Shown here: piece after piece, positions 2,363-14,839 of the stretch
Layout: each line of letters opens with the position of its first letter
Numbering within the stretch: the first letter of the stretch is position 1
From: Synechococcus sp. CCY 9618
Lineage (GTDB): Bacteria; Cyanobacteriota; Cyanobacteriia; PCC-6307; Cyanobiaceae
Length of the DNA stretch: 64,000 nt
Reading direction: 5' to 3'
Assembly: GCF_019038415.1 (NCBI RefSeq)
Contig: NZ_JAFKRG010000048.1
Coordinates: 1-64,000, forward strand
The notes under the pieces: model-generated
Database searches by the model: none
Told to the model about the DNA's origin: nothing
Seen by the model: the letters and a program-made list of their open reading frames with translations, nothing else
Translations under genes and position numbers: made by a program

Positions 2363-2968
2363 TCAGGGCGCCTCCGGCTCCCCGGGCTTCTGCACACGCT
2401 CGAGGTTGGAGCCCAGATCGGATTCCAGAAAGGAATTCACCACGTTTCCCATACCGCTGAGTCCCTCGAGGGCCGACTGCAGCGCCGGCAGGCTGATGGC
2501 CAGATCGTCGTTGGGGTAGGCGCGCAGGAACCCCACCGCCGAGAGGGTTCCCTCGCCGGACCGGATCCCCAGGATGGTGGCGGAACGCAGGGCCACCACG
2601 CCGACAGCCGGTGCCTTGAGGGGATAAAGGATGGTGGAGAGCCGCTCCAGGGCGGACTCCCCGAAGCGGGTGCTCATCAGACGGGTGGTCAGCACCAGCG
2701 GCAGGGGCACCTTGCGGCTGAGCAGCTTGCCGATCTCCTCAGGGTTCTGGCCGCCGATGCGCAGGGCATCGCCGAGCAGTCCCACGGCCACCCCCGTGCT
2801 GGCCAGCCGTTCCAGATCGGCGACGGGGATCGAGCGTCGAAAGGCTCCGCTGACGAAGACCACCTGCTCGGCGGCCTCCCCCGGCGCCCCCCCCAGGGCC
2901 AGCGCCGCCGCAATCATCAGTCCCGGCCACCGCGGGCTGGGGGTGCCGTCGAAGGTTGGACGGGGCAT
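2363..2968 (-). CDS. DUF1400 domain protein, exported
   Basis: A stand-alone copy of the DUF1400 domain found at the N-terminus of cyanobacterial alpha/beta hydrolases, here without the hydrolase part. The ATG at 2968 puts a signal peptide ending in GEAAEQ at the N-terminus; a TTG at 3001 would overlap the preceding gene by 13 nt but is less convincing. The body matches the N-terminal half of the protein encoded upstream (2989-4533) in layout: a beta strand after the cleavage site, a helical stretch ending in LLSRKVPL, and a strand with FLRAYPNDDLAI. The two genes probably arose by duplication and sit in one operon. Confidence 0.65.
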   Translation of the reverse strand: MPRPTFDGTPSPRWPGLMIAAALALGGAPGEAAEQVVFVSGAFRRSIPVADLERLASTGVAVGLLGDALRIGGQNPEEIGKLLSRKVPLPLVLTTRLMSTRFGESALERLSTILYPLKAPAVGVVALRSATILGIRSGEGTLSAVGFLRAYPNDDLAISLPALQSALEGLSGMGNVVNSFLESDLGSNLERVQKPGEPEAP

Positions 2969-2988
2969 CGGGTCGGTGGGGGGCGGAT

Positions 2989-4533
2989 TCAGGGTTCCCA
3001 ACTCTGGAGCCGGTCGGAGACATCGCTCATGGGCAGGGTGTCATCTCCCCAGCCGTCCGGGGGCAGCAGGGCGGGGGCCCCGGGACCCGGCGCCACGGCC
3101 GGGCCGGCGGCGAAGGCCCCGTTCACCCACCCCAGCAGCAACCCGCGCAGCGGTCCTCCTCCCGCGTCATAAGGGGAGCCGAGGTTGAAGTGGTCGCCCC
3201 CCCGCACCAGCACCAGCCGGTGTCCATCCCCGCTGCGTCGCTGGTGGCGGGCCATCGGCTTGATCGCCTCGGGGATCGGGGGCACCACCCAGTCGCGGCT
3301 GCCACTCACCACCAGGGCCCGAGCCTGCATGGAGCTGCCGGATTCCGCATCGAAGAGCAGGGCCATGGGGGGGCTCACCGCCACCACAGCCTTCACCCGT
3401 GGATCGGCCAGGCCCGCCTGGTCGGCGGAGGACAGGAAGCTGCACTGCAGGACCCAGCTGAGGTTCCTGTCAGGGTCCTGAAGATCCTGACAACGCCGCT
3501 GCAGCTGGCGGGAGCTGGGTTTGGCGCCCGCCAGCTGCAGGGCGGTGGCAGCCCCCCAGGACTGGCCCAGAACGACGACACTGTCGGTGTGCAGGCCAGG
3601 GGGAAGGGGAAGCCGGCCGGCTGCCGTCGCATCGATCAGGGCCGACACGTCGAGGGGCCTCAGACGCAGTTCCGCAGGGCCGGGCGGGGGCACCGTTCCG
3701 GAGAGCATCGCCTGTTGCTGCTCGGAGTCACTGCCCGGATGGCGCGGCAGCAACACCACGTAGCCATGGCTGGCAAGGTGGCGGGCCCAACCCTCGAAGC
3801 TCTCGGGCCCGTCCCAGAGACCATGGGAGATGATCACCAGCCGGCCGCTCGCCCCCTGCTCCGGACGGATCACCACCAGACCCAGGGGCTCGGCCCTGTA
3901 GGGCACGGGCAGGCTGAAAGGGGCCCGCTCCACCGGAGAGGGACCGGGGCTGCTCAGGGCCTGGCTGGCATGGGCCGGGGGGATTTCCGCCAGCAGCCGA
4001 TCGGCCGGCCTGAGCTGGTTGTTCAGCCGGTTGAGCAGAAACAGCCCTTTCTCCAGATCCACCGTGGCGGTGCAGCCCGGCAGGGACCTGAGCACGCCCA
4101 GCATGGTCAGGGGGCCTTCCCGGGCGGCCCGGTCCAGGGCGGCGGAGACCTGCTCGCCGGAAAGGTCGACCGGCAGTCCGTCGACGCCACCGAGGGAGGA
4201 GAGCAGCAACAGGGCCTGCTGGGCCAGGGGGGATCCGGCCGACTGACTGACCACGGCCCGGGTCTGCAGCGGCAGGGGAGCGTTGAACAGGCCGACGATC
4301 CTGCGGCCGACGGCCCCATCGCTGGCACGGTTCAGCTCTGCCAGATCACTGCTGCCGGTGAGCAGGCCCCGGGGCTCGCTGAGTTCGTCCAGCCGGATGG
4401 TGAACGTGGTCTCCACCAGGGGAATCTGCAGCTCGATCTGCTCCAGCGCGCGGGCCGGAGCGGCGACGGCGACCGCCAGGGCCACCAGCGACAGCGCTGC
4501 GATGACTGGCGTCGCCGGGCCCTGTTGAGGCAT
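2989..4533 (-). CDS. DUF1400/alpha-beta hydrolase, exported
   Basis: A secreted hydrolase of about 514 residues. The N-terminal signal peptide ends near PARALEQ; residues 30-190 are the DUF1400 domain; the C-terminal part is an alpha/beta hydrolase with an oxyanion-type IISHGLWD motif, the nucleophile elbow GQSWGAA (Ser), an Asp in SGSRDWV and a His in RGGDHFNL. The ATG at 4533 is preferred to the GTG at 4593, which overlaps the nrtD stop. The natural substrate is unknown. It lies 56 nt after nrtD on the same strand, so some read-through from the nitrate operon is possible. Confidence 0.75.
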   Translation of the reverse strand: MPQQGPATPVIAALSLVALAVAVAAPARALEQIELQIPLVETTFTIRLDELSEPRGLLTGSSDLAELNRASDGAVGRRIVGLFNAPLPLQTRAVVSQSAGSPLAQQALLLLSSLGGVDGLPVDLSGEQVSAALDRAAREGPLTMLGVLRSLPGCTATVDLEKGLFLLNRLNNQLRPADRLLAEIPPAHASQALSSPGPSPVERAPFSLPVPYRAEPLGLVVIRPEQGASGRLVIISHGLWDGPESFEGWARHLASHGYVVLLPRHPGSDSEQQQAMLSGTVPPPGPAELRLRPLDVSALIDATAAGRLPLPPGLHTDSVVVLGQSWGAATALQLAGAKPSSRQLQRRCQDLQDPDRNLSWVLQCSFLSSADQAGLADPRVKAVVAVSPPMALLFDAESGSSMQARALVVSGSRDWVVPPIPEAIKPMARHQRRSGDGHRLVLVRGGDHFNLGSPYDAGGGPLRGLLLGWVNGAFAAGPAVAPGPGAPALLPPDGWGDDTLPMSDVSDRLQSWEP

Positions 4534-4589
4534 GGGGGTCTCGGGACAGGGCCGAATCCTGACAGATCCGGCCGGCCCTCGTTCAGACC

Positions 4590-5435
4590 TCACTCCACAT
4601 CGTCGTGGGCGAAGCGGTTGTAGAGGAAGTCGAGGGCGGTGTTGCGCAGTTCGTAGTACTTCGGGTCTTCCATGATGTCCTCCCGGTTGCGGGGCCGGGG
4701 AAAGTCGATGGGCATCACCTCGCCGATCGAGGCGGCCGGGCCATTGGTCATCATCACCAGCCGATCGGCGAGGAACAGGGCCTCATCGATGTCGTGGGTG
4801 ATCATCAGCACGGTGCATTTCTGGGTGTTCCAGATCTGCAGCAGCTCCTCCTGCAGCTCCTCCTTGGTGATGGCGTCCAGGGCCCCGAAGGGTTCATCGA
4901 GGATCAGCACCTCCGGGCGGATGGCCAGGGCCCGGGCAATGGCCACCCGCTGCTTCATGCCCCCGGAAAGCTGGGTGATCCGCTTGTCGCTGGCCTTGTC
5001 CAGGCCCACCATCGCCAGGTGCTCCATGGCGATCTCCCGTTTCTCCCGTTCGGGAAGGTTCGGCTTCACCGCGTCGATGGCCAGATGGACGTTTTCGTAG
5101 GCCGTCATCCAGGGCAGCAGGGCATAGCCCTGGAAGACCACCATGCGATCCGGGCCGGGCTTCTCGATCGGCACGCCGTTGAGCAGCACCTGGCCGGAGG
5201 TCGGCCTGGAGAAGCCGGACACCATGTTCAGCAGGGTGGATTTACCGCAACCGGAGTGACCGATGACGCAGATGAACTCCCCCTGCTCGACCTGCAGGTT
5301 GATGTTCTCCAGCACCGGATAGGGACCGGTGGGGGTGGGGTACACCTTGCCCAGCCCCTCAAAGCGCAGCAGGGGCTGGGGAGGGGAGGGGATGTCGATG
5401 GGTGGGGCCGGGGTGGCTGGGGCGATGGTGGTCAT
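4590..5435 (-). CDS. nrtD: Nitrate ABC transporter ATP-binding protein NrtD
   Basis: The second ATPase subunit of the cyanobacterial nitrate/nitrite importer, working with NrtC on the cytoplasmic face of the NrtB channel. Walker [10 protein letters not shown] is at residues 59-67, the signature LSGG at 156-159 and Walker B LILDEP at 177-182, with the switch His in MITHDIDEA. The 281-residue length is normal. The Pro-rich first 22 residues are an extension before the ATPase core. It is the last gene of nrtABCD, 85 nt after nrtC. Confidence 0.95.
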
Positions 5436-5520
5436 GGGGTGGGGATGCGAGTGGGGGGGAGGAGCAGGCGACGGCTCGGCAGGCGGTGACTGGGTCGGTG
5501 CTGGCTCGGCCGGTGCTGGT

Positions 5521-7518
5521 TCAGACGGCCATGGCGCGGGGCTGGCCGATGGGGATTTCGGCGATGCTGAAATCGCGGTGAACCGAGACGTCGTTGAGGT
5601 AAGCGATCGGGTCCTCGGGGTTGAAGGGACGGCCGTCGAACAGCTCGATCCCCTGGCGCTGGTAGCTCACGTCCTCCAGGCCCAGTTCCCGGGCGGCGGT
5701 GCTGAACACCCCCACGCTGCAGACCCTCTCCAGGATCTCCACGTAGTTGCGGGGGAAGGGGATCTCGGCCCAGCGGGCCAGCTGGGTGAGGATCCAGAGG
5801 TGTTCGCTGCGGCTGGGGCGGTTCAACCCCGCGCCGAAGAACAGATGGTGGGGTTCGCCGTGGGGGGCGAAGGCGCCCGATTCGCCGGGCTGGCCGCTGA
5901 AGCGGATCAGGTCGGCGTTGATGCCCAGGTAGCGGCGGTCGCTGAGCAGTTCGCCCATCTCAGGCCAGTGGGCCGGATCGGCGCAGTAGCGGCAGGCCTC
6001 GAGCAGGGCCTTGGTGAGGGCGATGTGGGTGTTGGGGTAGGCCTGGGCCCAGTCCTCGCGGGCGCCGAGCACCTTGCCGGGGTGGCCCGACCAGATCTCC
6101 AGGTCCCCCACGATCGGCACGCCGTGGCCGGAGCGGGCGGCCCGGAAGTTCCAGGGTTCGCCGATGCAGTAGCCGTCGATGGATCCGTCCTTGAGGTCGG
6201 CCAGCATCTGGGCCGGCGGCAGGGTCTGCAGGTGCACGTCCCGGTCGGGATCGATGCCGTTGGCCGCCAGCCAGTAGCGCAGCAGCAGGTTGTGCATCGA
6301 GGCGGGATGGACGATGCCGATCCGGTGCGGCTCCCGCTCGTGGCTGCCCAGCCAGGCGCGGTAGTCCTCGACCGTGGTCACTCCCTGTTCCGCCAGCCGG
6401 CGGGCCAGGGTCACCTCGTTGCCGTTGCGGCTGATGGTGAGGGCGGTGACGATCGGCAGCGGTTCGCCGCCGTGGCCGCCGGCCGTCATCCAGGTGGGCA
6501 TGCCCGAGGGCATCATCGCCGCGTCGAGGGTGCGGTCCACCAGGCCGTCGAGCACCCCCCGCCAGCTGGTCTCGCGCACCAGCTGCACGTCGTCGAGGCC
6601 GTGCTTGGCGAAGAAGCCCTTGGCTTCGGCCACCGCCAGGGGCGCGCAGGCGGCCAGGGGGATGAAGCCCAGATCCAGGTTCACCTTCTCCAGGCCGTGG
6701 CGGGCCAGCACCTTGTGGGGCCGGGCCTGCCACTGCTTGACCCGCTTCTGGCGGTTGAGGAAGTAGATGATCTCCGAGCGCAGGCTGTAGTAGCTCGGGT
6801 GGTGCACCACCGTGAGGCGCTGGCGGGGCCGGGGGATGTCCACCTCAAGGATGCCGCCGATCTTTGAGCCCGGTCCGTTGGTGAGCATGACGATGCGGTC
6901 GGAGAGCAGCACCGCCTCGTCCACGTCGTGGGTGACCATCACCGCGGTGAGCGCGTGCTCATTGCAGATCTGCATCAGCTTTTCCTGCAGATTGCCCCGG
7001 GTGAGGGCATCGAGGGCGCCGAAGGGTTCATCCAGCAGCAGCAGCTTCGGCTTGATCGCCAGGGCCCGGGCGATGGCCACCCGCTGGCGCATGCCCCCGG
7101 AGAGCTGGGCAGGCAGCTTGGTGCCGGCCTGGCCCAGCCCCACCATCTCCAGGTGCTCATCGATCACGGCGTCCTTCTCAGAGCGGCCCAGATCGGGCAT
7201 CACCTCATCCACCGCAAGGGCGATGTTTTGGCGCACCGTGAGCCAGGGCAGCAGGGAATAGTTCTGGAACACGACCATCTTGTCGGGCCCGGGGCGCTTG
7301 ACCGTCTCCCCTTCCAGCAGCACGGTGCCGCCGGTGGGCAGATCAAGCCCGGCGATCATGTTGAGCAGGGTGGACTTGCCGCATCCGGAGTGGCCGATCA
7401 GGGAGATGAATTCCCCCTTGCGGATCTCTAGGTCGATCCCCTTGAGGGCCAGATAGTGGCCCCCACCGGTGAGGGGGAAGTCCTTTTCGATGTTCTGGAC
7501 TTCAACGAGTGCGGTCAT
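5521..7518 (-). CDS. nrtC: Nitrate ABC transporter NrtC, ATPase fused to NrtA-like domain
   Basis: Residues 1-250 are an ABC ATPase (Walker [10 protein letters not shown] at 42-50, LSGGMRQ near 140, Walker B LLLLDEP) and residues about 275-650 resemble the nitrate-binding protein NrtA, including a WRGVLDGL segment and a C-terminal DGRPFNPEDPIAYLN motif shared with NrtA. In other cyanobacteria this C-terminal domain is regulatory and makes transport sensitive to ammonium or nitrogen status (family knowledge). Length (665 residues) is typical. A 27-nt gap separates it from the small ORF upstream. Confidence 0.95.
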   Translation of the reverse strand: MTALVEVQNIEKDFPLTGGGHYLALKGIDLEIRKGEFISLIGHSGCGKSTLLNMIAGLDLPTGGTVLLEGETVKRPGPDKMVVFQNYSLLPWLTVRQNIALAVDEVMPDLGRSEKDAVIDEHLEMVGLGQAGTKLPAQLSGGMRQRVAIARALAIKPKLLLLDEPFGALDALTRGNLQEKLMQICNEHALTAVMVTHDVDEAVLLSDRIVMLTNGPGSKIGGILEVDIPRPRQRLTVVHHPSYYSLRSEIIYFLNRQKRVKQWQARPHKVLARHGLEKVNLDLGFIPLAACAPLAVAEAKGFFAKHGLDDVQLVRETSWRGVLDGLVDRTLDAAMMPSGMPTWMTAGGHGGEPLPIVTALTISRNGNEVTLARRLAEQGVTTVEDYRAWLGSHEREPHRIGIVHPASMHNLLLRYWLAANGIDPDRDVHLQTLPPAQMLADLKDGSIDGYCIGEPWNFRAARSGHGVPIVGDLEIWSGHPGKVLGAREDWAQAYPNTHIALTKALLEACRYCADPAHWPEMGELLSDRRYLGINADLIRFSGQPGESGAFAPHGEPHHLFFGAGLNRPSRSEHLWILTQLARWAEIPFPRNYVEILERVCSVGVFSTAARELGLEDVSYQRQGIELFDGRPFNPEDPIAYLNDVSVHRDFSIAEIPIGQPRAMAV

Positions 7519-7545
7519 GGCAGATCACTGTTGGGCGAGGTGAAA

Positions 7546-7722
7546 TCACTTGCGTGAGAGATAGAAGAAGCCGAAGGCCAGCACCATCACGGTCATCAGC
7601 GAGAAGCGGACCAGCAGGAAACGGATCACGTTGCGCCGGTCGTTCATCCAGGCGTCGAGGGGAGCCTGCAGGGCGCCGAGGGCCCGGAGGGAGGGATGCA
7701 GCATCGGGGTGACCCGGCTCAC
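7546..7722 (-). CDS. Small single-span membrane protein inside the nrt operon
   Basis: A 58-residue ORF between nrtB and nrtC. Its GTG start (7720-7722) overlaps the nrtB stop as GTGA, a classic translational-coupling arrangement; an internal ATG at 7704 gives a 52-residue form. The protein has a polar N-terminal half with a WMNDRRN segment, then one hydrophobic helix (FLLVRFSLMTVMVLAFGFFYL) and the C-terminus LSRK, so a cytoplasmic N-terminus and one membrane span are likely. I know no named nrt component of this kind. It could assemble with the transporter or modulate it; this is inference from position. Confidence 0.6.
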   Translation of the reverse strand: MSRVTPMLHPSLRALGALQAPLDAWMNDRRNVIRFLLVRFSLMTVMVLAFGFFYLSRK

Positions 7723-8546
7723 TGACCGGGGGAAATGCGCGACTGCAGCCAGGCCATCAGGCGATCCAGCAGCAGGCCCACGCCTCCGATCCAGACCACT
7801 GCCAGCACGATGTCGCTGACATAGTTCTGCTGGTAGGCATCCCAGATGAAGAAACCGATGCCCACGATGCCGCTCATCACGATTTCGGCGGCGATGATCG
7901 CCAACCAGGCCAGACCGATGGAGATCCGCAGGCCGGTGAAGATGTAGGGCAGAGCAGAGGGAATCAGAACCTTCAGGAAGAAGGTCTTTTTCGACATCTG
8001 CAGCACCAGGGCCACGTTGTGATAGTCCTGAGGGATCTGACGCACCCCTTCAGCGGTGTTGATCAGAATCGGCCAGACAGCGGTGATGAAGATCACGAAG
8101 ATCGCAGCGGGCTGGTTCTTCTGGAAGATCACCAGGGCGATCGGCACCCAGGCCAGGGGCGCCACCATGCGCAGGAACTGAAACAGGGGGTCAAAGGCCC
8201 GGTTGAGGGTCTTGTTGAGCCCCACGGCGATGCCGGCGCCGATCCCCACCACCGCGGCGAGCACATAGCCCTGGGCCACCCGGCCCAGGCTTGCCAGGGT
8301 CTGCCAGAAGAGACCTTTGTCGAGCCCGCCCCTGTCGTAGAAGGGATACAGGAGCAGCTCGCGGGTGCGGGTCTCGGTGAACAGGCTGAGGGGGCCGGGC
8401 AGGCGGGTGAGGCCGAGGCTGGCGCTCAGTTGCCAGGCCAGCAGGAAACCGAAGATGCCCAGCAGGGGAGGCAGGATCAGCTTGCGGTGGTGCTTCCACC
8501 AGAGCAGGGGTCCTGAACTGGAAGGAGTGGAGGCAGTGATCGTCAT
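7719..8546 (-). CDS. nrtB: Nitrate ABC transporter permease NrtB
   Basis: Inner-membrane channel subunit of the nitrate importer, BPD_transp_1 type, 275 residues from the ATG at 8546. Hydrophobic spans are visible near residues 20-40, 80-105, 120-145, 180-205 and 235-255. The cytoplasmic EAA-type loop lies around the GLRISIGLAWLAIIAAEIVMSGIVGIGF region (two segments, near 200-225). It follows nrtA after 118 nt that contain a strong hairpin, and its stop codon overlaps the start of the small ORF 7546-7722. Confidence 0.93.
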   Translation of the reverse strand: MTITASTPSSSGPLLWWKHHRKLILPPLLGIFGFLLAWQLSASLGLTRLPGPLSLFTETRTRELLLYPFYDRGGLDKGLFWQTLASLGRVAQGYVLAAVVGIGAGIAVGLNKTLNRAFDPLFQFLRMVAPLAWVPIALVIFQKNQPAAIFVIFITAVWPILINTAEGVRQIPQDYHNVALVLQMSKKTFFLKVLIPSALPYIFTGLRISIGLAWLAIIAAEIVMSGIVGIGFFIWDAYQQNYVSDIVLAVVWIGGVGLLLDRLMAWLQSRISPGQ

Positions 8547-8629
8547 GGACGTCGTCCTGGAAAAGAGTGGGGGAATCCGTTGGGGACCTGGCCCAGGGCC
8601 TTGGGGCCGGGGCCAGATCGGGGAGATGT

Positions 8630-8652
8630 GGGGCCGATGCAACATCGGCCCC
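8630..8652 (-). promoter_or_regulatory. Perfect 10-bp hairpin between nrtA and nrtB
   Basis: GGGGCCGATG at 8630-8639 and CATCGGCCCC at 8643-8652 form a perfect stem with a 3-nt loop, 12 nt after the nrtA stop. No U-run follows on the transcribed strand, so it is more likely a 3' stabiliser or partial attenuator than a full terminator. Such elements often raise the level of the binding-protein mRNA relative to the permease. Confidence 0.65.
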
Positions 8653-8664
8653 TGTGGAGAAGAA

Positions 8665-10005
8665 TCAGCGCTTGATCTTCAGGCTGTTCAGATAGGCCTG
8701 TGGGTTCTCGGGGTCGTAGATGATCCCGTCGAAGAAGGTCTCCTTGCCCCGGGAGGAGGTGGTGGGGATGTCCTTGGCGGGCAGGCCCAGTTCGGTGGCG
8801 GCCTGGCGCCAGATGTCTTCCCGGTTCACCTTGTTGACGATGGCTCTGGCCTGGTTGATGGAGGTGAGCTTGCCCGGGTGCATGTTCCAGCGCAGGGATT
8901 CCACCAGGAACCAGAGACTCAGGCTCTTGTAGGGATAGGAGATCACGCCACGATCACTCATCCAGTAGATCGGGCCCTTCTTGGGATCGTTCTCAGGCTT
9001 CTTGTCGGCCCCCAGCAGGTACTGACCCTTGAGGGCGGGTTCGAGCACATCCACCGGCGTGTTGAAGTAAGCCCGTGAACTGATCAGTTTGGCCACTTCG
9101 CCGCGGTTCTCCTGCTTATCGGCCCATTGCTGGGCTTCGATCAGTCCCTTGACCAGGGCCACGGCGGCCTTGGGATTTTTATCCACCCAGTCGGCCCGGA
9201 CAGCCAGGAATTCCTCGGGGTGATCGGGCCAGATCTGGGCCGTGAGTGCTGCGGTGTAACCGATGTCGTCGCGGACGATGCGGAAGGGCCAGGGATCGCC
9301 GGTGCTGAAGGCCTCCATGGTGCCGTTGCGCATGCCCTGCAGCGTCTCGGTGGAGGGCACCGTGAGCAGCTCGATGTCCTTGTCGGGGTCGATGCCACCG
9401 GCCGCCAGCCAGTAGCGGATCCACATGTCCTGGTTGGCGTTGGGATAGGTGTGGGCCGCCCGGAACTTGCGTCCCTCCTTCTGGGGGAAGCGCTTGAAGA
9501 CATCCACCTTGGAGGAGAGATCCACGCCGAGGTTGTCGTTCTTGAGGCTGTTGGAGACGGCGATGCCGTTGGCCTGGCTGATCAGCTGCGCCAGGACGTA
9601 CATGGGCACCTTCTTGCCGTCGGTGATGACGCCCTCAGTGATCATGTGTGGCATCGGCAACTGCCACTGGCCGCCGTCGATGCCACCGCCGGAGGATCCG
9701 AGCACGACGTTGTCTCGGGCGGCGGGCCAGCTGGCCTGCTTGGCCAGTTCGACCTTCAGGCCATGCTTGGCGAAGAAGCCCTTCTCCACTCCCACCACCA
9801 GGGGAGCGGCTTCGAGGATGGGGATGTAACCGAGCTTGATGGTGGTGGTTTCCAGGTTGCCGGCGGCGGGGCTGGCGGCCTGGGGGGTGGCGCTGGAATC
9901 AGTGGCGCCTGGCGGATTGCCGAAGCAGCCGGAGAGCAGAACAGAACTACCGAAGGCTCCGCCGAGCAAGGTGATGAAACGACGGCGATTGGTCATGGTG
10001 TTCAA
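8665..10005 (-). CDS. nrtA: Nitrate-binding lipoprotein NrtA
   Basis: Periplasmic nitrate/nitrite-binding subunit, 446 residues. The N-terminus combines a twin-arginine-like RRR at 7-9 with a lipobox LSGC (Cys27), giving membrane anchoring. After a Ser/Thr/Ala-rich linker the binding domain begins with [14 protein letters not shown], and a C-terminal [17 protein letters not shown] motif matches the end of the NrtC sensor domain. First gene of nrtABCD; the operon's likely control region is 10006-10357. A second in-frame ATG (residue 4) is also possible. Confidence 0.95.
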
Positions 10006-10357
10006 GGTCGACTGGGGGAGAAAGAAAGGGTTGGCAGGCAGAAAATAAGGGGCTGTTGAATCAACAGTCCCGTGCGTTAAGTCTGATCTGTGGAATGTCT
10101 CTTTTAAGCGAGACTATCGAGGCAATGAAGGGTTCAGGTGGGAGCGATCAAGGGTGGTTTCTGGGCCCCTGTTTTGGGGTCCGGCAACAGTACTGGCTGG
10201 AGTGGAATTCTGGACACTGACTCCAAGCAGCCTTCCCGATCCTGGAGATAAAGCTATCTTATGTCAGCTGAGACTGACTGGTTAAGCAAGCGCTTTATCG
10301 GCTCCTTGCCTTGAGAAAAGCGATGCCAAGGTATCTGGAAATACCCTGTATTTCAAG
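10006..10357. promoter_or_regulatory. nrtA upstream region
   Basis: A 352-nt non-coding stretch between psiE and nrtA. It holds a perfect 15-bp palindrome CTGTTGA-A-TCAACAG (10053-10067), shorter inverted repeats GTCTC/GAGAC and AGATA/TATCT (10246-10259), and the NtcA consensus at 10331-10344. I could not place a -10 element with confidence. The palindrome, 48-62 nt before the nrtA start, could be an operator or a leader structure. Confidence 0.5.
10331..10344 (-). promoter_or_regulatory. NtcA consensus site GTAN8TAC
   Basis: GTATCTGGAAATAC matches the NtcA consensus GTA-N8-TAC exactly. NtcA activates nitrate-assimilation genes in cyanobacteria when ammonium is scarce. The site lies 326 nt upstream of the nrtA start and 14 nt past the psiE stop, so it would imply a long nrtA leader of about 280 nt. 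The distance lowers confidence; no clear TAN3T box 22 nt downstream was found. Confidence 0.5.
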
Positions 10358-10975
10358 CTACTTCCTGGCTGGAATGACCCTTTCGTCGATGACCCTTTCC
10401 TCGATGGCACGTGCCGACAGGTCTTCCTGTTCCAGCCTCGGATGGCCAGGACTCTGGTGAGCAGGCTGTTCATGGGACTGGCGCATCCGCGCCGAGACCT
10501 GGCCTTCCGGATCCACACCCGCAAAGGTGGGGGGCAGCCAGACCCGCACCACCATCAGCAGGGCCATGGTCATCAGGAACAGGCATACCGCCAGGATCTG
10601 CTGCCAGTCGGTTTCCAGCACCCCTCGCACGATCACCTCCCGCAGCACCGACACGATGGCGATCTCCACCGCCACACCGATCGACACCCGCTGTTCCTGT
10701 AGATAGATGATCAGCAGGCGGAACAGTTCCACCAGGATCAGGATGAAGAGGATGTCGGCCGTGACTTCGTGGAACGCTGAGGTGGAAATCAGGGTGGTGA
10801 AGGTGCGTTTCAGCTGGAGCACCATCACCCCGAACAGGCCCAGGCAGAGGGAAATGGCGATCAGGTCCTGAACCGCCTCGAGGAACTGGACGATCTGGCT
10901 GCGGCGGAACTGCTGATACCAGGGAATGGCGTCATGGGTTGCGGAAGCCGGCGTTCTGGTGGGCGGGTGGTTCAT
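10358..10975 (-). CDS. PsiE-family membrane protein
   Basis: A 205-residue inner-membrane protein of the phosphate-starvation-inducible E (PsiE) family. Four hydrophobic spans are visible (about residues 38-58, 70-92, 98-118 and 125-148), with the family-typical EVTADILFILILVELFRLL and IVSVLREVIV segments. The C-terminal 50 residues are hydrophilic and charged, an extension beyond the usual family length. Its start lies inside the end of the Crp/Fnr gene (44-nt overlap), so the two are co-expressed. Function unknown. Confidence 0.8.
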   Translation of the reverse strand: MNHPPTRTPASATHDAIPWYQQFRRSQIVQFLEAVQDLIAISLCLGLFGVMVLQLKRTFTTLISTSAFHEVTADILFILILVELFRLLIIYLQEQRVSIGVAVEIAIVSVLREVIVRGVLETDWQQILAVCLFLMTMALLMVVRVWLPPTFAGVDPEGQVSARMRQSHEQPAHQSPGHPRLEQEDLSARAIEERVIDERVIPARK

Positions 10976-11600
10976 GGCGGAGGGTTCTCGGGAAGGGCAG
11001 GGAAGAGATGGGGAGGGAAGACTGATGGGTGTGCAGGGAGCTCAGGCAGGCGCTGCGAGGTACCAGCAGATCGGCCTCGCTGACCTTGACGACCAGGCCC
11101 TTGCTGCGGAAACGCGTGAGGGACTTGGTCACGGTCACCCTGGTCATGCCGGCGATGTCGGCCAGGTGGCGATGGGTCAGGTTCATGTCCTCCAGGGAGA
11201 GGGTGGTGCCGCTGCTGCTGATCCGCCCGAAGCGCCCACCGATCCAGTGGAGCAGGCGCAGCAGTCGCGCATCGGCGGGCCTGACCCGGTGGATCTGCAG
11301 GAGATGGGCCGTCTGGGTGATCTGGTCACGAAGGAAGTCCAGGATCTCAGCGTCGCTGGGCTTCCATTCCTCGACCACCACCCGGGTCAGGGAGATGAGC
11401 TCGTACGGCGTCACCCCAGATCCGGTGGGGGTGACCAGCTCGCCCGGTCCCCAGATGCCGAGGGTGATGGATTCCCCTTCCTCGTTCCAGGTGTTGGCAC
11501 GGATGTAGCCATCGTCGATGCGCCAGCTCGTGTCGGCCGGCAGGTGATCATCGGCGCGCAGGTTCAGGCGCAGCGGTCGGGCGGGCATGGTGAGGGACAT
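10932..11600 (-). CDS. Crp/Fnr-family transcriptional regulator
   Basis: A 222-residue regulator. Residues 20-100 are a shortened cNMP-binding-like sensor domain (GESITLGIWGPGELV), followed by a dimerisation helix (ILDFLRDQITQTAHLLQI) and a winged HTH (LTHRHLADIAGMTRVTVTKSL, about 140-165). It is not NtcA itself: the sensor domain is too short and the HTH differs. The last 25 residues are low complexity and overlap psiE. Upstream position next to nrtABCD suggests, but does not prove, a role in nitrogen regulation. An ATG at residue 5 is an alternative start. Confidence 0.8.
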   Translation of the reverse strand: MSLTMPARPLRLNLRADDHLPADTSWRIDDGYIRANTWNEEGESITLGIWGPGELVTPTGSGVTPYELISLTRVVVEEWKPSDAEILDFLRDQITQTAHLLQIHRVRPADARLLRLLHWIGGRFGRISSSGTTLSLEDMNLTHRHLADIAGMTRVTVTKSLTRFRSKGLVVKVSEADLLVPRSACLSSLHTHQSSLPISSLPFPRTLRHEPPAHQNAGFRNP

Positions 11601-11942
11601 GGCACGGAGGAAGGGTTGGAGTGAAAGTGATGGAGTGGAAGTGAGCCGAAAGCTCGATGGTCATCAACTTCGTCCGTCCCGCTGGCCGTCACGGGGGGTT
11701 GTCCTGGTGGCGCGACGCCGCCGCTGAGCTGGCAGGGAGGGCATGGAGGGAGATTCCTTCGGAAAGGGGTAGGGGTGGGGAAGAATGGAAGGGAAGGAAA
11801 GACCGTTGGGCAGGCCCGAACCCCCATGCAGGAGGCTCGTGTTGGAGTCCGGGAACATTAATGACCAATTCCGGCCATTGGGTGATAGCCGATCGCAGGA
11901 TTACCAATCCAGGTGATAAGCCACGGTGATTGGATTGGCCCC
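11601..11942. other. Divergent intergenic region
   Basis: 342 nt between the divergent crp-like gene and the DUF6671 gene. It contains polypurine stretches near 11740-11790 and an AT-richer patch around 11855-11880 suited to a promoter, but no operator or RNA gene that I can support. Confidence 0.3.
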
Positions 11943-12860
11943 ATGCTGCTTGTGCTTTCCACCGCCGTGATCGGTCCTCCCGGCTTCGATGGTCTGGCTC
12001 CCTATGCGGGCCGGTGCGTGGCCCTGGCCACCTGCCACGGCAAGGAGCGGGTCCTGGCCCGTCCGTTCCGCCGCGCCCTGAACCTCACCGTGGTGGTGGC
12101 CACCGGCTGTGAGACGGATCGGTTCGGCACGTTCAGCGGTGAGCGACCCCGCCCCTCCCATGCCAGGGAAACCTGCCGGCGCAAGGCGGAAGCCGGCTTG
12201 GCGCACACCGGCCTGGATCTGGGTCTGGCCAGCGAGGGCAGCTTCGGTCCCCACCCCGCCTTCCCCTGGCTGGCGGCGGGGGTGGAATGGCTCACCTTCA
12301 TCGACCGTCGGGCGGACCTGGTGATCGAGGAGCGTCTGATTGCCCCGCGCACCAACTTCGATCAGCGGCTGGTGGCGCCGGCGGACGACATCGGCGCCTG
12401 GCTGGGGCAGGTGGGCTTCCCCTCCCATGCCCTGATCGCTCGCCCCCATCGGACGGATGGGATCGGCACTCCCGGATCCGACCCCCTGATCAAGGGGATC
12501 CGGGACCCCGGCCAGCTGGCTCTGGCGCTGCGGTCTTGCGCCGAGGCCTCCCCGGCGGGACTGGTGCGGCTGGAGACGGACATGCGGGCCCACTGCAATC
12601 CCACCCGTCTGCGGGCGATCCGGACCCTGGCCTTCCGGCTCGTGCGGCGCATCGCCAGTCCCTGCCCGGCCTGCGGGGCCCCGGGCTGGGGGCTGATGGA
12701 CCGCCTGGCCGGTCTGCCCTGCGGCTGGTGCGGGGGACCCACCGAGGGCCATCGGGTCGAGGTCCGGGGGTGTGTGGCCTGCGGGCACCGCCTGGAGGCC
12801 CCCCGTGCGGACGGCAGGCGCTGGGCCGATCCCGGCGATTGCACCCGATGCAATCCCTGA
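11943..12860 (+). CDS. DUF6671 family protein with C-terminal zinc ribbon
   Basis: A soluble protein of about 305 residues. The C-terminal 90 residues hold paired cysteines (CPACG, CGWC, CVACG, CTRC) that form one or two zinc ribbons. The N-terminal part (ATCHGKERVLARPF, then GTFSGERPRP and FIDRRADLVIEERL) follows the layout I associate with DUF6671. No catalytic function is known. The ATG at 11943 is chosen over one 30 nt upstream because the hydrophobic strand LLVLSTAV follows directly. Confidence 0.65.
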   Translation: MLLVLSTAVIGPPGFDGLAPYAGRCVALATCHGKERVLARPFRRALNLTVVVATGCETDRFGTFSGERPRPSHARETCRRKAEAGLAHTGLDLGLASEGSFGPHPAFPWLAAGVEWLTFIDRRADLVIEERLIAPRTNFDQRLVAPADDIGAWLGQVGFPSHALIARPHRTDGIGTPGSDPLIKGIRDPGQLALALRSCAEASPAGLVRLETDMRAHCNPTRLRAIRTLAFRLVRRIASPCPACGAPGWGLMDRLAGLPCGWCGGPTEGHRVEVRGCVACGHRLEAPRADGRRWADPGDCTRCNP

Positions 12861-13018: not shown

Positions 13019-14839
13019 ATGTCTGCAACCGCACAACCCGGATCTTTGCAGTTCGACAGCCTGCTGAAACAGGCGGATAAGCAGTCCTCCCCATCCTTCG
13101 ACCCTGCTTCAAAACCCCAGCAGGACAGGCTTTCTCTGCAATCGGTGCAGGTAGCTGCGGATACCACCGTGCTGCGCTCCCTCGACTGGGACCGCAGCCG
13201 CTTCGACATTGAGTTCGGCCTGCGCAATGGCACCACCTACAACGCCTTCCTTGTGGGCGGTGAGCGCTGGGCTCTGGTGGATACCAGTCACGCGAAGTTC
13301 CGCCAGCCCTGGCTGGATCTGCTGCAGTCCCGCATCGATCCGCGCCGCATTGATCATCTGATCGTTTCCCATACCGAACCTGACCATTCCGGCCTGATCG
13401 CTGATGTCCTGGAGCTCCATCCGGAGATCGAGATCGTCGGCTCGAAGGTGGCGATCCAGTTCCTGGAGCACCAGCTGCATCGCCCCTTCCGCCGCCGGGT
13501 GGTGAAGAGCGGCGACCGGCTCGACCTCGGCCGCAACCCCGATTCCGGCATGGCCCATGAACTGGAATGTCTCAGTGCGCCGAACCTGCACTGGCCGGAC
13601 ACGATCTTCAGTTTCGATCACGGCACCGGCACCCTGTTCACCTGTGACGCCTTCGGTCTGCATTACTGCTCAGAAGAGGTGTTCGATGCCGACCCCGGCG
13701 CCATCGCCCCCGATTTCCGCTTCTACTACGACTGCCTGATGGGGCCGAACGCCCGCAGCGTTCTGCAGGCGCTGAAGCGGATCGAGGCCCTGCCGCCCAT
13801 CACCACCGTGGCCACCGGCCATGGCCCCCTGCTGCGCCACCACATCGACCATTGGCTTGGGGACTACCGCGACTGGAGCCAGGCCCGCAGCGGCAGCGAG
13901 ACCTACGCGGCGGTCTGTTACCTGAGCCAGTACGGTTTCTGCGACCGGGTCAGCCAGGCCATCGCCCGCGGCATTGGCAAAGCCGGCGCCCAGGTGCAGA
14001 TGGTGGATCTGCGCTCCACCGATGCCCAGGAGCTGGCGGCCCTGATCGGCGAAGCGGCGGCCGTGGTGGTACCCACCTGGCCGGTGGATCCCGAGCCCGA
14101 CCTGCAGGCGGCGATCGGCACCCTGCTGGCGGCCCTGCGGCCGGCCCAGTGGGTGGGGTGTTACGACGCCCTGGGCCGGCAGGATGAACCCCTCTACGGC
14201 CTCGCCAGCCGGCTGCGTTCCCTCGGCCAGAGCGAGGGGTTCGCTCCCCTGCGGCTGGCCCAGGTGCCGGACGCGGCTGACGTCCAGCGGTGCGAGGAAG
14301 CCGGCACCGATCTGGGTCTGCTGCTGACGCGGGAGCGCACCATCGCCGCGATGAAAGCTCTTGATGGTGATCTGGACCGGGCCCTCGGCCGGCTCAGCGG
14401 TGGCCTCTACGTGGTCACCGCCGCCCAGCAGGAGCGCAGCGGCGCCATGGTGGCCAGCTGGGTGAGCCAGGCCAGCTACGAGCCCCCGGCGCTCACGGTC
14501 GCCGTGGCCCGGGAGCGGGCCATCGAAGCCCTGCTGCAGGTGGGCGACCGCTTCGTGCTCAACGTGCTGCGCCAGGACAACCACCAGAGCCTGCTGCGCC
14601 ATTTCCTGCGTCGCTTTCCGCCCGGGGCCGACCGCTTCGCCGGCATCGCCGTGCTGGAGGGGGTGGCCGCCGGTGGTCCGGTGCTGGGAGACGCCCTGGC
14701 CTACCTGGGCTGCCGGGTGAGCCAGCGCCTCGAGACCGCCGACCACTGGATCGTCGTGGCCGAGGTGGAGGAGGGCAGCGTCTCCGACACCGAGGCCGCC
14801 ACGGCCGTGCATCACCGCAAATTCGGCAACCACTACTGA
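13019..14839 (+). CDS. flv3: Flavodiiron protein Flv3
   Basis: A-type flavodiiron protein with a C-terminal flavin reductase, which in cyanobacteria reduces O2 to water downstream of photosystem I as a partner of Flv1. Domains: metallo-beta-lactamase-like diiron domain (about 45-300), flavodoxin (about 300-445) and flavin reductase (about 450-606). The diiron ligands are all present (His118, Glu120, Asp122, His123, His191, Asp210, His268), which marks it as Flv3-type rather than Flv1. Length 606 residues is normal. flv1 follows after 13 nt. Confidence 0.92.
   Translation: MSATAQPGSLQFDSLLKQADKQSSPSFDPASKPQQDRLSLQSVQVAADTTVLRSLDWDRSRFDIEFGLRNGTTYNAFLVGGERWALVDTSHAKFRQPWLDLLQSRIDPRRIDHLIVSHTEPDHSGLIADVLELHPEIEIVGSKVAIQFLEHQLHRPFRRRVVKSGDRLDLGRNPDSGMAHELECLSAPNLHWPDTIFSFDHGTGTLFTCDAFGLHYCSEEVFDADPGAIAPDFRFYYDCLMGPNARSVLQALKRIEALPPITTVATGHGPLLRHHIDHWLGDYRDWSQARSGSETYAAVCYLSQYGFCDRVSQAIARGIGKAGAQVQMVDLRSTDAQELAALIGEAAAVVVPTWPVDPEPDLQAAIGTLLAALRPAQWVGCYDALGRQDEPLYGLASRLRSLGQSEGFAPLRLAQVPDAADVQRCEEAGTDLGLLLTRERTIAAMKALDGDLDRALGRLSGGLYVVTAAQQERSGAMVASWVSQASYEPPALTVAVARERAIEALLQVGDRFVLNVLRQDNHQSLLRHFLRRFPPGADRFAGIAVLEGVAAGGPVLGDALAYLGCRVSQRLETADHWIVVAEVEEGSVSDTEAATAVHHRKFGNHY

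Follow-up and report, generated by a model that had tools for sequence, protein, structure and literature searches.

A conserved small membrane protein encoded in the cmp bicarbonate transporter operon of Cyanobium-type cyanobacteria, a candidate accessory component of BCT1

The window analyzed here is a 64,000-nucleotide stretch of a Synechococcus genome, and the feature of interest lies in the 200 nt that separate the permease gene of a minus-strand ABC transporter operon from its ATPase gene. Read on that strand, positions 7722..7546 form an open frame of 58 codons plus a stop; on the plus strand the same frame is closed by a stop at codon 4. The first-pass annotation had described this 58-codon frame as a gene starting at a GTG that overlaps the permease stop. 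The frame is indeed present, and all 22 genus loci in which both flanking genes are readable have a homologous ORF at this place. The GTG start is also there in the window, but it is not a conserved feature: an in-frame GTG overlapping the permease (cmpB) stop is found in only 6 of the 22 loci, whereas all 22 have an in-frame ATG after that stop, at a distance of 5-37 nt, or 91 nt in one locus (L016). The overlap of the GTG with the cmpB TGA (7721-7719) arises because cmpB ends in Gln-stop (CAG TGA). Since the ATG is universal and the GTG is not, the likely product in the window has 52 amino acids, and the likeliest extent of the gene is 7546..7704 on the minus strand (ATG at 7704-7702, 52 codons, stop at 7548-7546). 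The in-frame extension at 7705..7722 thus appears less likely to be used, and the GTG at 7722 is probably not the main start. Predicted products in relatives range from 49 to 63 amino acids.

The surrounding genes form a cmpABCD operon, which encodes the bicarbonate transporter BCT1. Specifically, cmpA (8665..10005, minus strand) encodes the bicarbonate-binding lipoprotein, with 594.4 bits to the solved CmpA (PDB 2i48) vs 409.3 to NrtA (2g29). The BCT1 permease gene cmpB (7719..8645, minus strand; TIGR01183) scores 376.5 bits to CmpB (9u9z) vs 272.3 to NrtB (8w9m) in a phmmer search of the PDB; its coordinates are those of the longest ORF, so that the real start may lie further downstream. The third gene, cmpC (5521..7518, minus strand), encodes an ATPase fused, by its Pfam domains, to a substrate-binding-like regulatory domain, and scores 1032.7 bits to CmpC vs 800.7 to NrtC in the PDB. 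The second ATPase is assigned to cmpD (4590..5435, minus strand) from its position after cmpC, as its match to TIGR01184 (403 bits), a model that covers NrtC and NrtD, cannot separate Cmp from Nrt. CmpA-, CmpB- and CmpC-type subunits are therefore found in one operon, CmpC carries the fused regulatory domain, and none of the binding protein, permease and ATPase is closer to Nrt than to Cmp. In addition, a stretch that reads HPEK in NrtA reads HPEE both in CmpA and in the binding protein of the window.

These results bear directly on the first-pass annotation, which had called the locus a nitrate operon and the small protein a possible partner of the nitrate transporter NrtABCD. The confusion is understandable: the two transporters, NrtABCD and CmpABCD, are paralogous, and in NCBIfam the cmp genes match best to, and pass, two models for nitrate transport, TIGR01183 and TIGR01184, so that the operon is easily taken for nrt. 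The scores of CmpA, CmpB and CmpC against the solved proteins all speak for Cmp, however, and the nitrate-type operons are found elsewhere in the genus. Many genus genomes contain a second operon of this type, whose permease is 45-58% identical to that of the window, and in all three such operons tested the binding protein is NrtA-like (510.8 vs 393.7, 506.1 vs 381.9, and 506.6 vs 375.7 bits, Nrt vs Cmp). In these nitrate-type paralogues the gap between the B and C genes is -2 to 4 nt in all 27 loci that contain the two, which leaves no room for the small gene, and it was not found in any of them. No second, nitrate-type copy was found in the draft genome of the window itself. We therefore reject the reading of this locus as a nitrate operon and consider it highly improbable that the small protein belongs to the nitrate transporter.

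Directly upstream of cmpA lies a gene for a PsiE-like membrane protein (10358-10975, minus strand), followed by one for a Crp/Fnr-type regulator (10932-11600, minus strand); the matches of the latter to the PtrA and NtcA models are far below the model cut-offs. In Synechocystis, according to the part of the review PMC13249358 covered here, this upstream site is occupied by the LysR regulator CmpR.

The first-pass annotation had proposed searching related genomes for the ORF at the same site, and had named a lack of conservation and of an excess of synonymous changes as the outcome that would speak against it. We found the opposite. A homologous ORF lies in the permease-ATPase gap of every genus cmp locus in which both flanking genes are readable (22 of 22; 17 + 5). 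This count excludes a locus with a different permease (L070, G002; 41% identity), four loci with contig ends or incomplete genes (L067, L069, L033, and L076), and L071-L075 and L077-L079, which are second fetches of loci already counted. L012/L158 (G002), without a complete cmpB or cmpC, were likewise kept out of the 22-locus alignment, and L068 (G030), in which cmpC, from its codon 318, directly follows cmpB codons 127-262 and the small ORF is missing, was not counted as intact. Over the 22 aligned sequences, identity to the window protein falls from 63 to 25%, but M1, F29, L30, R33, and M40 never vary, and L36 and F44 hardly do; the N-terminal third is poorly conserved.

The substitution pattern indicates that the protein product is what has been conserved. 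Nonsynonymous differences are, per site, rarer than synonymous ones (pN<pS) in 229 of 231 pairs, which are not independent of each other. We also picked ten disjoint pairs by hand, using 20 of the 22 aligned sequences (L019 and L065 left out), and pN<pS holds in all ten (sign test, 0.002), with a Jukes-Cantor dN/dS of 0.12-0.36 in nine pairs and 0.66 in one. Pooled pN/pS in the real frame is 0.48, 0.51, and 0.47 in three subclades, whereas the two other forward frames give 0.86-2.12; for the full set of 22 sequences it is 0.65, vs 0.96 and 1.20. Low ratios are also seen in one antisense frame (0.68, 0.63, and 0.49 by subclade; 0.86 over all 22), almost as low in subclade C as those of the real frame, which we take to reflect a frame in which the silent positions mostly coincide. 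Altogether, the small ORF is, by these sequence comparisons, a real protein-coding gene under purifying selection. A functionless ORF, open by chance or in decay, would fit the shortness of the frame, its poorly conserved N-terminal third, its absence from 16 contiguous operons of the family and the nesting of non-carriers among carriers (see below). It is nevertheless very hard to reconcile with the fact that all 22 genus loci have kept the frame open and begin it with an ATG, with the dN/dS values above, and with five invariant residues in proteins that are down to 25% identical to that of the window, and we give it hardly any weight.

The same data weigh on a second alternative, namely that the ORF is a cis-acting translational element, a leader or spacer that sets the output of cmpC after cmpB and whose peptide matters little. 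Its location between cmpB and cmpC is what such an element would need, and the distance from its stop to the cmpC start is short in the window (27 nt) and more so in its subclade (6 nt in 9 of 10 loci). Across the genus loci, however, this spacer ranges from 6 to 126 nt, the amino acids are conserved beyond what an open frame alone would require, and in four genomes the gene sits upstream of cmpA, where it no longer precedes cmpC. We thus regard a purely cis-acting role as improbable. As a separate observation, a terminator-like pattern with a 5-pair stem lies inside the small ORF at 7582-7570 on the minus strand, and an Rfam search of window positions 4500-12000 gave no family at the gathering score.

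The encoded protein (7546..7704, minus strand), as judged from the alignment, selection, hydropathy, and AlphaFold2, consists of an N-terminal helical segment and one membrane helix. The single membrane helix claimed in the first-pass annotation is borne out by hydropathy: each of the 22 proteins has one hydrophobic stretch, with a mean Kyte-Doolittle value of 1.91-2.65 over 19 residues. The net charge before this stretch is +1 to +4 in all 22, and after it the charge is zero or negative in 18 and positive in four, including the window protein (+2). According to the positive-inside rule, the positively charged flank of a membrane helix tends to remain in the cytoplasm, and the N terminus of the small protein is thus probably cytoplasmic; owing to its positive C-terminal charges, the window protein is the least clear case. 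AlphaFold2, run with nine sequences, predicts helices at residues 4-20 and 23-51 (mean pLDDT 74, pTM 0.40), with the highest confidence in the membrane part (residues 31-50). None of the 22 members matches a Pfam family at E<=0.1; NCBIfam gives weak matches only, the best being a NuoM model at E 0.0056, seen in 3 of the 22; and a profile search of the PDB returned no relative, its two hits being unrelated chains (E 1.9 and 4.8).

To follow the gene beyond the genus, we compared its distribution with that of CmpA. A profile of the 22 proteins, with at most 16 first-look candidates scored per genome, matched 32 of 400 family genomes at E<=0.01, and 53 of the 400 have a CmpA orthologue, counted at above 500 bits with the addition of one that is divided between two contigs. 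The two coincide in 31 genomes, with the small gene alone in one and CmpA alone in 22; this linkage of 31 of 32 is a raw count of genomes, uncorrected for phylogeny. Of the 23 CmpA-positive genomes within the genus, 22 have the small gene, the exception (G019) being a contig that ends inside cmpB. Among the 31 carriers with CmpA, the gene lies between cmpB and cmpC in 27, a figure that includes one genome judged from two contigs (G418) and one with a shortened form (G515). The remaining four, which belong to another genus, carry it upstream of cmpA in the same orientation, with a Crp-type gene intervening in one. The shortened form (L157, 409-510, minus strand) encodes a protein of about 32 residues, nearly the membrane helix only.

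The 22 genomes with CmpA alone comprise 16 with contiguous cmpA-B-C, four cut by contig ends (G019, G443, G453, and G497, with G497 and G019 judged from coordinates), and two with cmpA but no cmpBCD. In the 16 contiguous operons no homologue was found near the operon, nor did the profile search described above match these genomes at E<=0.01. Therefore, the small protein is not a universal subunit of the transporter. In the two genomes without cmpBCD (L175 in G394 and L173 in G431), cmpA stands beside a Crp-type gene, and cmpB, cmpC, and cmpD are absent from the fetched stretch.

In the class, the profile matched 31 of 388 genomes at E<=0.1, of which only four, all from the genus, fell below 1e-5; outside the family there was no credible match in the 388 genomes, the best (E 0.0012) containing an in-frame stop. 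By eye, no similar ORF is present in the cmpB-cmpC gap of the 28 CmpB loci that scored best in the class outside the genus, in 26 of which cmpC adjoins cmpB. A contig scan with the single window protein as query returned no match, and one with the alignment returned eight loci, all with coding sequences identical to known genus loci; the named records with identical sequences include Cyanobium, Synechococcus, and Aphanothece strains and a lake metagenome genome. Weak matches outside cmp operons (E about 0.02 to 1) were put down to chance. Among them, L022 and L028 also scored E 3e-5 and 4e-4 in a small-database tblastn, but they lie inside long unrelated reading frames, that of L028 resembling a glycosyltransferase by eye.

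The strain names, together with the portions covered of a 2022 survey (PMC9477826), point to freshwater alpha-cyanobacteria as the carriers. These portions report cmp in freshwater alpha-cyanobacteria, describe it as acquired from beta lineages, and do not mention a small cmp-operon gene. In a FastTree phylogeny of CmpB and part of CmpC, the family operons group together with a support of 0.991, carriers are found on both deep branches, and non-carriers are nested among carriers. This pattern fits an early gain of the small gene followed by several losses, in a tree in which one of the two deep branches has a support of 0.398 and several inner nodes are weak.

The one carrier without a CmpA orthologue (G002) deserves a separate look. 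There, the start of cmpA is joined to the tail of cmpB and followed by an intact small ORF (L158, G002:C109), and neither cmpC nor cmpD was found beside it. The persistence of this ORF without intact transporter genes beside it counts against a strict dependence on BCT1. It is one of the points in favor of a third alternative, that the small protein is part of the low-carbon response and merely shares the cmp operon, acting with another partner; this could be another carbon transporter, a protease such as FtsH, the adjacent PsiE-like protein, or the thylakoid. The many cmp operons without the small gene, and the crp-like and psiE-like genes that adjoin several of these operons, would agree with such a role. 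However, the G002 protein has Ile at the nearly invariant F44 and its ORF may be a remnant, and apart from G002 none of the 400 family genomes has the small gene without a CmpA orthologue. We accordingly hold a different partner, whichever of these candidates is meant, to be unlikely, though less so than a cis-acting element.

The reading that we prefer, and consider rather probable, is that Cyanobium-type cyanobacteria use the small protein as an optional, single-pass accessory subunit of BCT1 (CmpABCD) or as a modulator of it. The selection on the protein, its linkage to cmp, and its hydrophobic helix with positive charge on the N side are all computed from the genomes. In the proposed arrangement, the N terminus would be cytoplasmic and the C terminus outside, the membrane helix with its invariant FL..R......M pattern would pack against CmpB, and the N-terminal helix would lie on the inner face of the membrane near the ATPases CmpC and CmpD. 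Through this contact the small protein could tune how active, stable, or leaky the transporter is, as SbtC is reported to do for SbtA. The binding to CmpB, the direction of the effect, and the control of leakage in the dark are inferred from SbtC and other small transporter regulators. A comparison of CmpB columns that separate carriers from non-carriers does not indicate a docking site, since the top 15 columns all lie in the sparse N terminus. The suggestion of an accessory subunit or regulator in the first-pass annotation thus survives in part: an overlooked, conserved membrane protein is linked to an ABC transporter operon in two positions, but as a universal subunit it fails, many BCT1 operons of the family and class doing without it (the 16 family operons and the 28 class loci above).

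Further regulation of BCT1 is plausible in view of what is known of CmpC. In the part of the review PMC13249358 covered here, the large regulatory domain of CmpC is said to respond to nitrate and a contact between SbtB and CmpC is reported, so that BCT1 is regulated post-translationally and a further regulator could be accommodated. A more far-reaching version of our reading would make the small protein a fifth component of BCT1, gained with the transfer of cmp from beta- to alpha-cyanobacteria and controlling the pump through its conserved-Arg helix beside CmpB, where control could mean shutting BCT1 or preventing leakage in the dark. We regard this version as tentative and, on balance, doubtful.

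The closest known counterpart is SbtC of Synechocystis, a small protein with a predicted membrane helix that is encoded upstream of sbtA/sbtB and co-migrates with SbtA/SbtB; strains without it show more carbon uptake and more leakage (commentary PMC13360264). PMC13360264 and the part covered of PMC13249358 differ as to whether SbtC helps or limits transport. Like SbtC as described there, the product studied here comes from a small overlooked ORF beside bicarbonate-transporter genes, has one predicted membrane helix, and is patchily distributed (PMC13360264). Unlike it, the gene is located at cmp genes in the 31 carriers with CmpA rather than beside sbtA/sbtB; SbtC serves the Na-dependent SbtA, and the likeness is one of description. 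A wider comparison is offered by AcrZ, MgtS, MgtU, and MntS, small proteins that bind or are thought to bind transporters and tune or stabilize them, and by LucB of a mycobacterial ABC lipid transporter, all taken from part of the review PMC10710835. With fewer than ~70 residues, one membrane helix, and a genetic link to a transporter, our protein resembles the AcrZ/MgtS kind, which is a functional class and not one family. These five proteins are likewise small, several with a single helix, and transporter-associated, but they serve other transporters in other organisms and are likened by description only.

BCT1 elsewhere has the same large subunits, with cmpB followed by cmpC in the 26 class loci mentioned above, and differs in having no similar ORF between them; the portions covered of PMC13249358, PMC13159521, and PMC11349869 describe it with four subunits only. 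In the literature searched, at the level of titles, the starts of abstracts and some passages, no small cmp-operon gene is described, which does not prove its absence from print; the small membrane protein of the bicarbonate operon is apparently previously undescribed. In Synechocystis, CmpB is slr0041 and CmpC is slr0043. The intervening slr0042, which we take to be a porin-type gene of the cmp operon, is likewise an extra gene between cmpB and cmpC, but its product is presumably a much larger outer-membrane porin.

A regulator of BCT1 would be of practical interest. BCT1 is an engineering target for carbon uptake in plant chloroplasts, and the unmodified BCT1 of Synechococcus PCC 7942 was inactive in Escherichia coli, which the authors attribute to missing cyanobacterial factors (PMC11349869, in the part covered). 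The small protein is a concrete candidate for such a factor in the BCT1 operons that carry its gene, because it is operon-encoded, selected as a protein, and linked to BCT1 in two positions. It probably does not explain the PCC 7942 result, since no relative was seen outside the family. If a fifth component of BCT1 existed alongside SbtC, small helix proteins would form a general control layer of cyanobacterial carbon uptake.

Some further features of the neighborhood may be noted. A PsiE-like gene, a Crp-type gene, or both adjoin the cmp operons of several relatives. Upstream of the operon in the window, positions 13019-14839 on the plus strand encode a flavodiiron-like protein whose C-terminal part resembles a flavin reductase, with matches below the curated cut-offs. 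Downstream, an alpha/beta-hydrolase-like ORF (2989-4593, minus strand) has a GTG start that overlaps the cmpD stop, and the remnant operon of G002 is followed, by eye, by fragments resembling this ORF and the next one (2363-3001).
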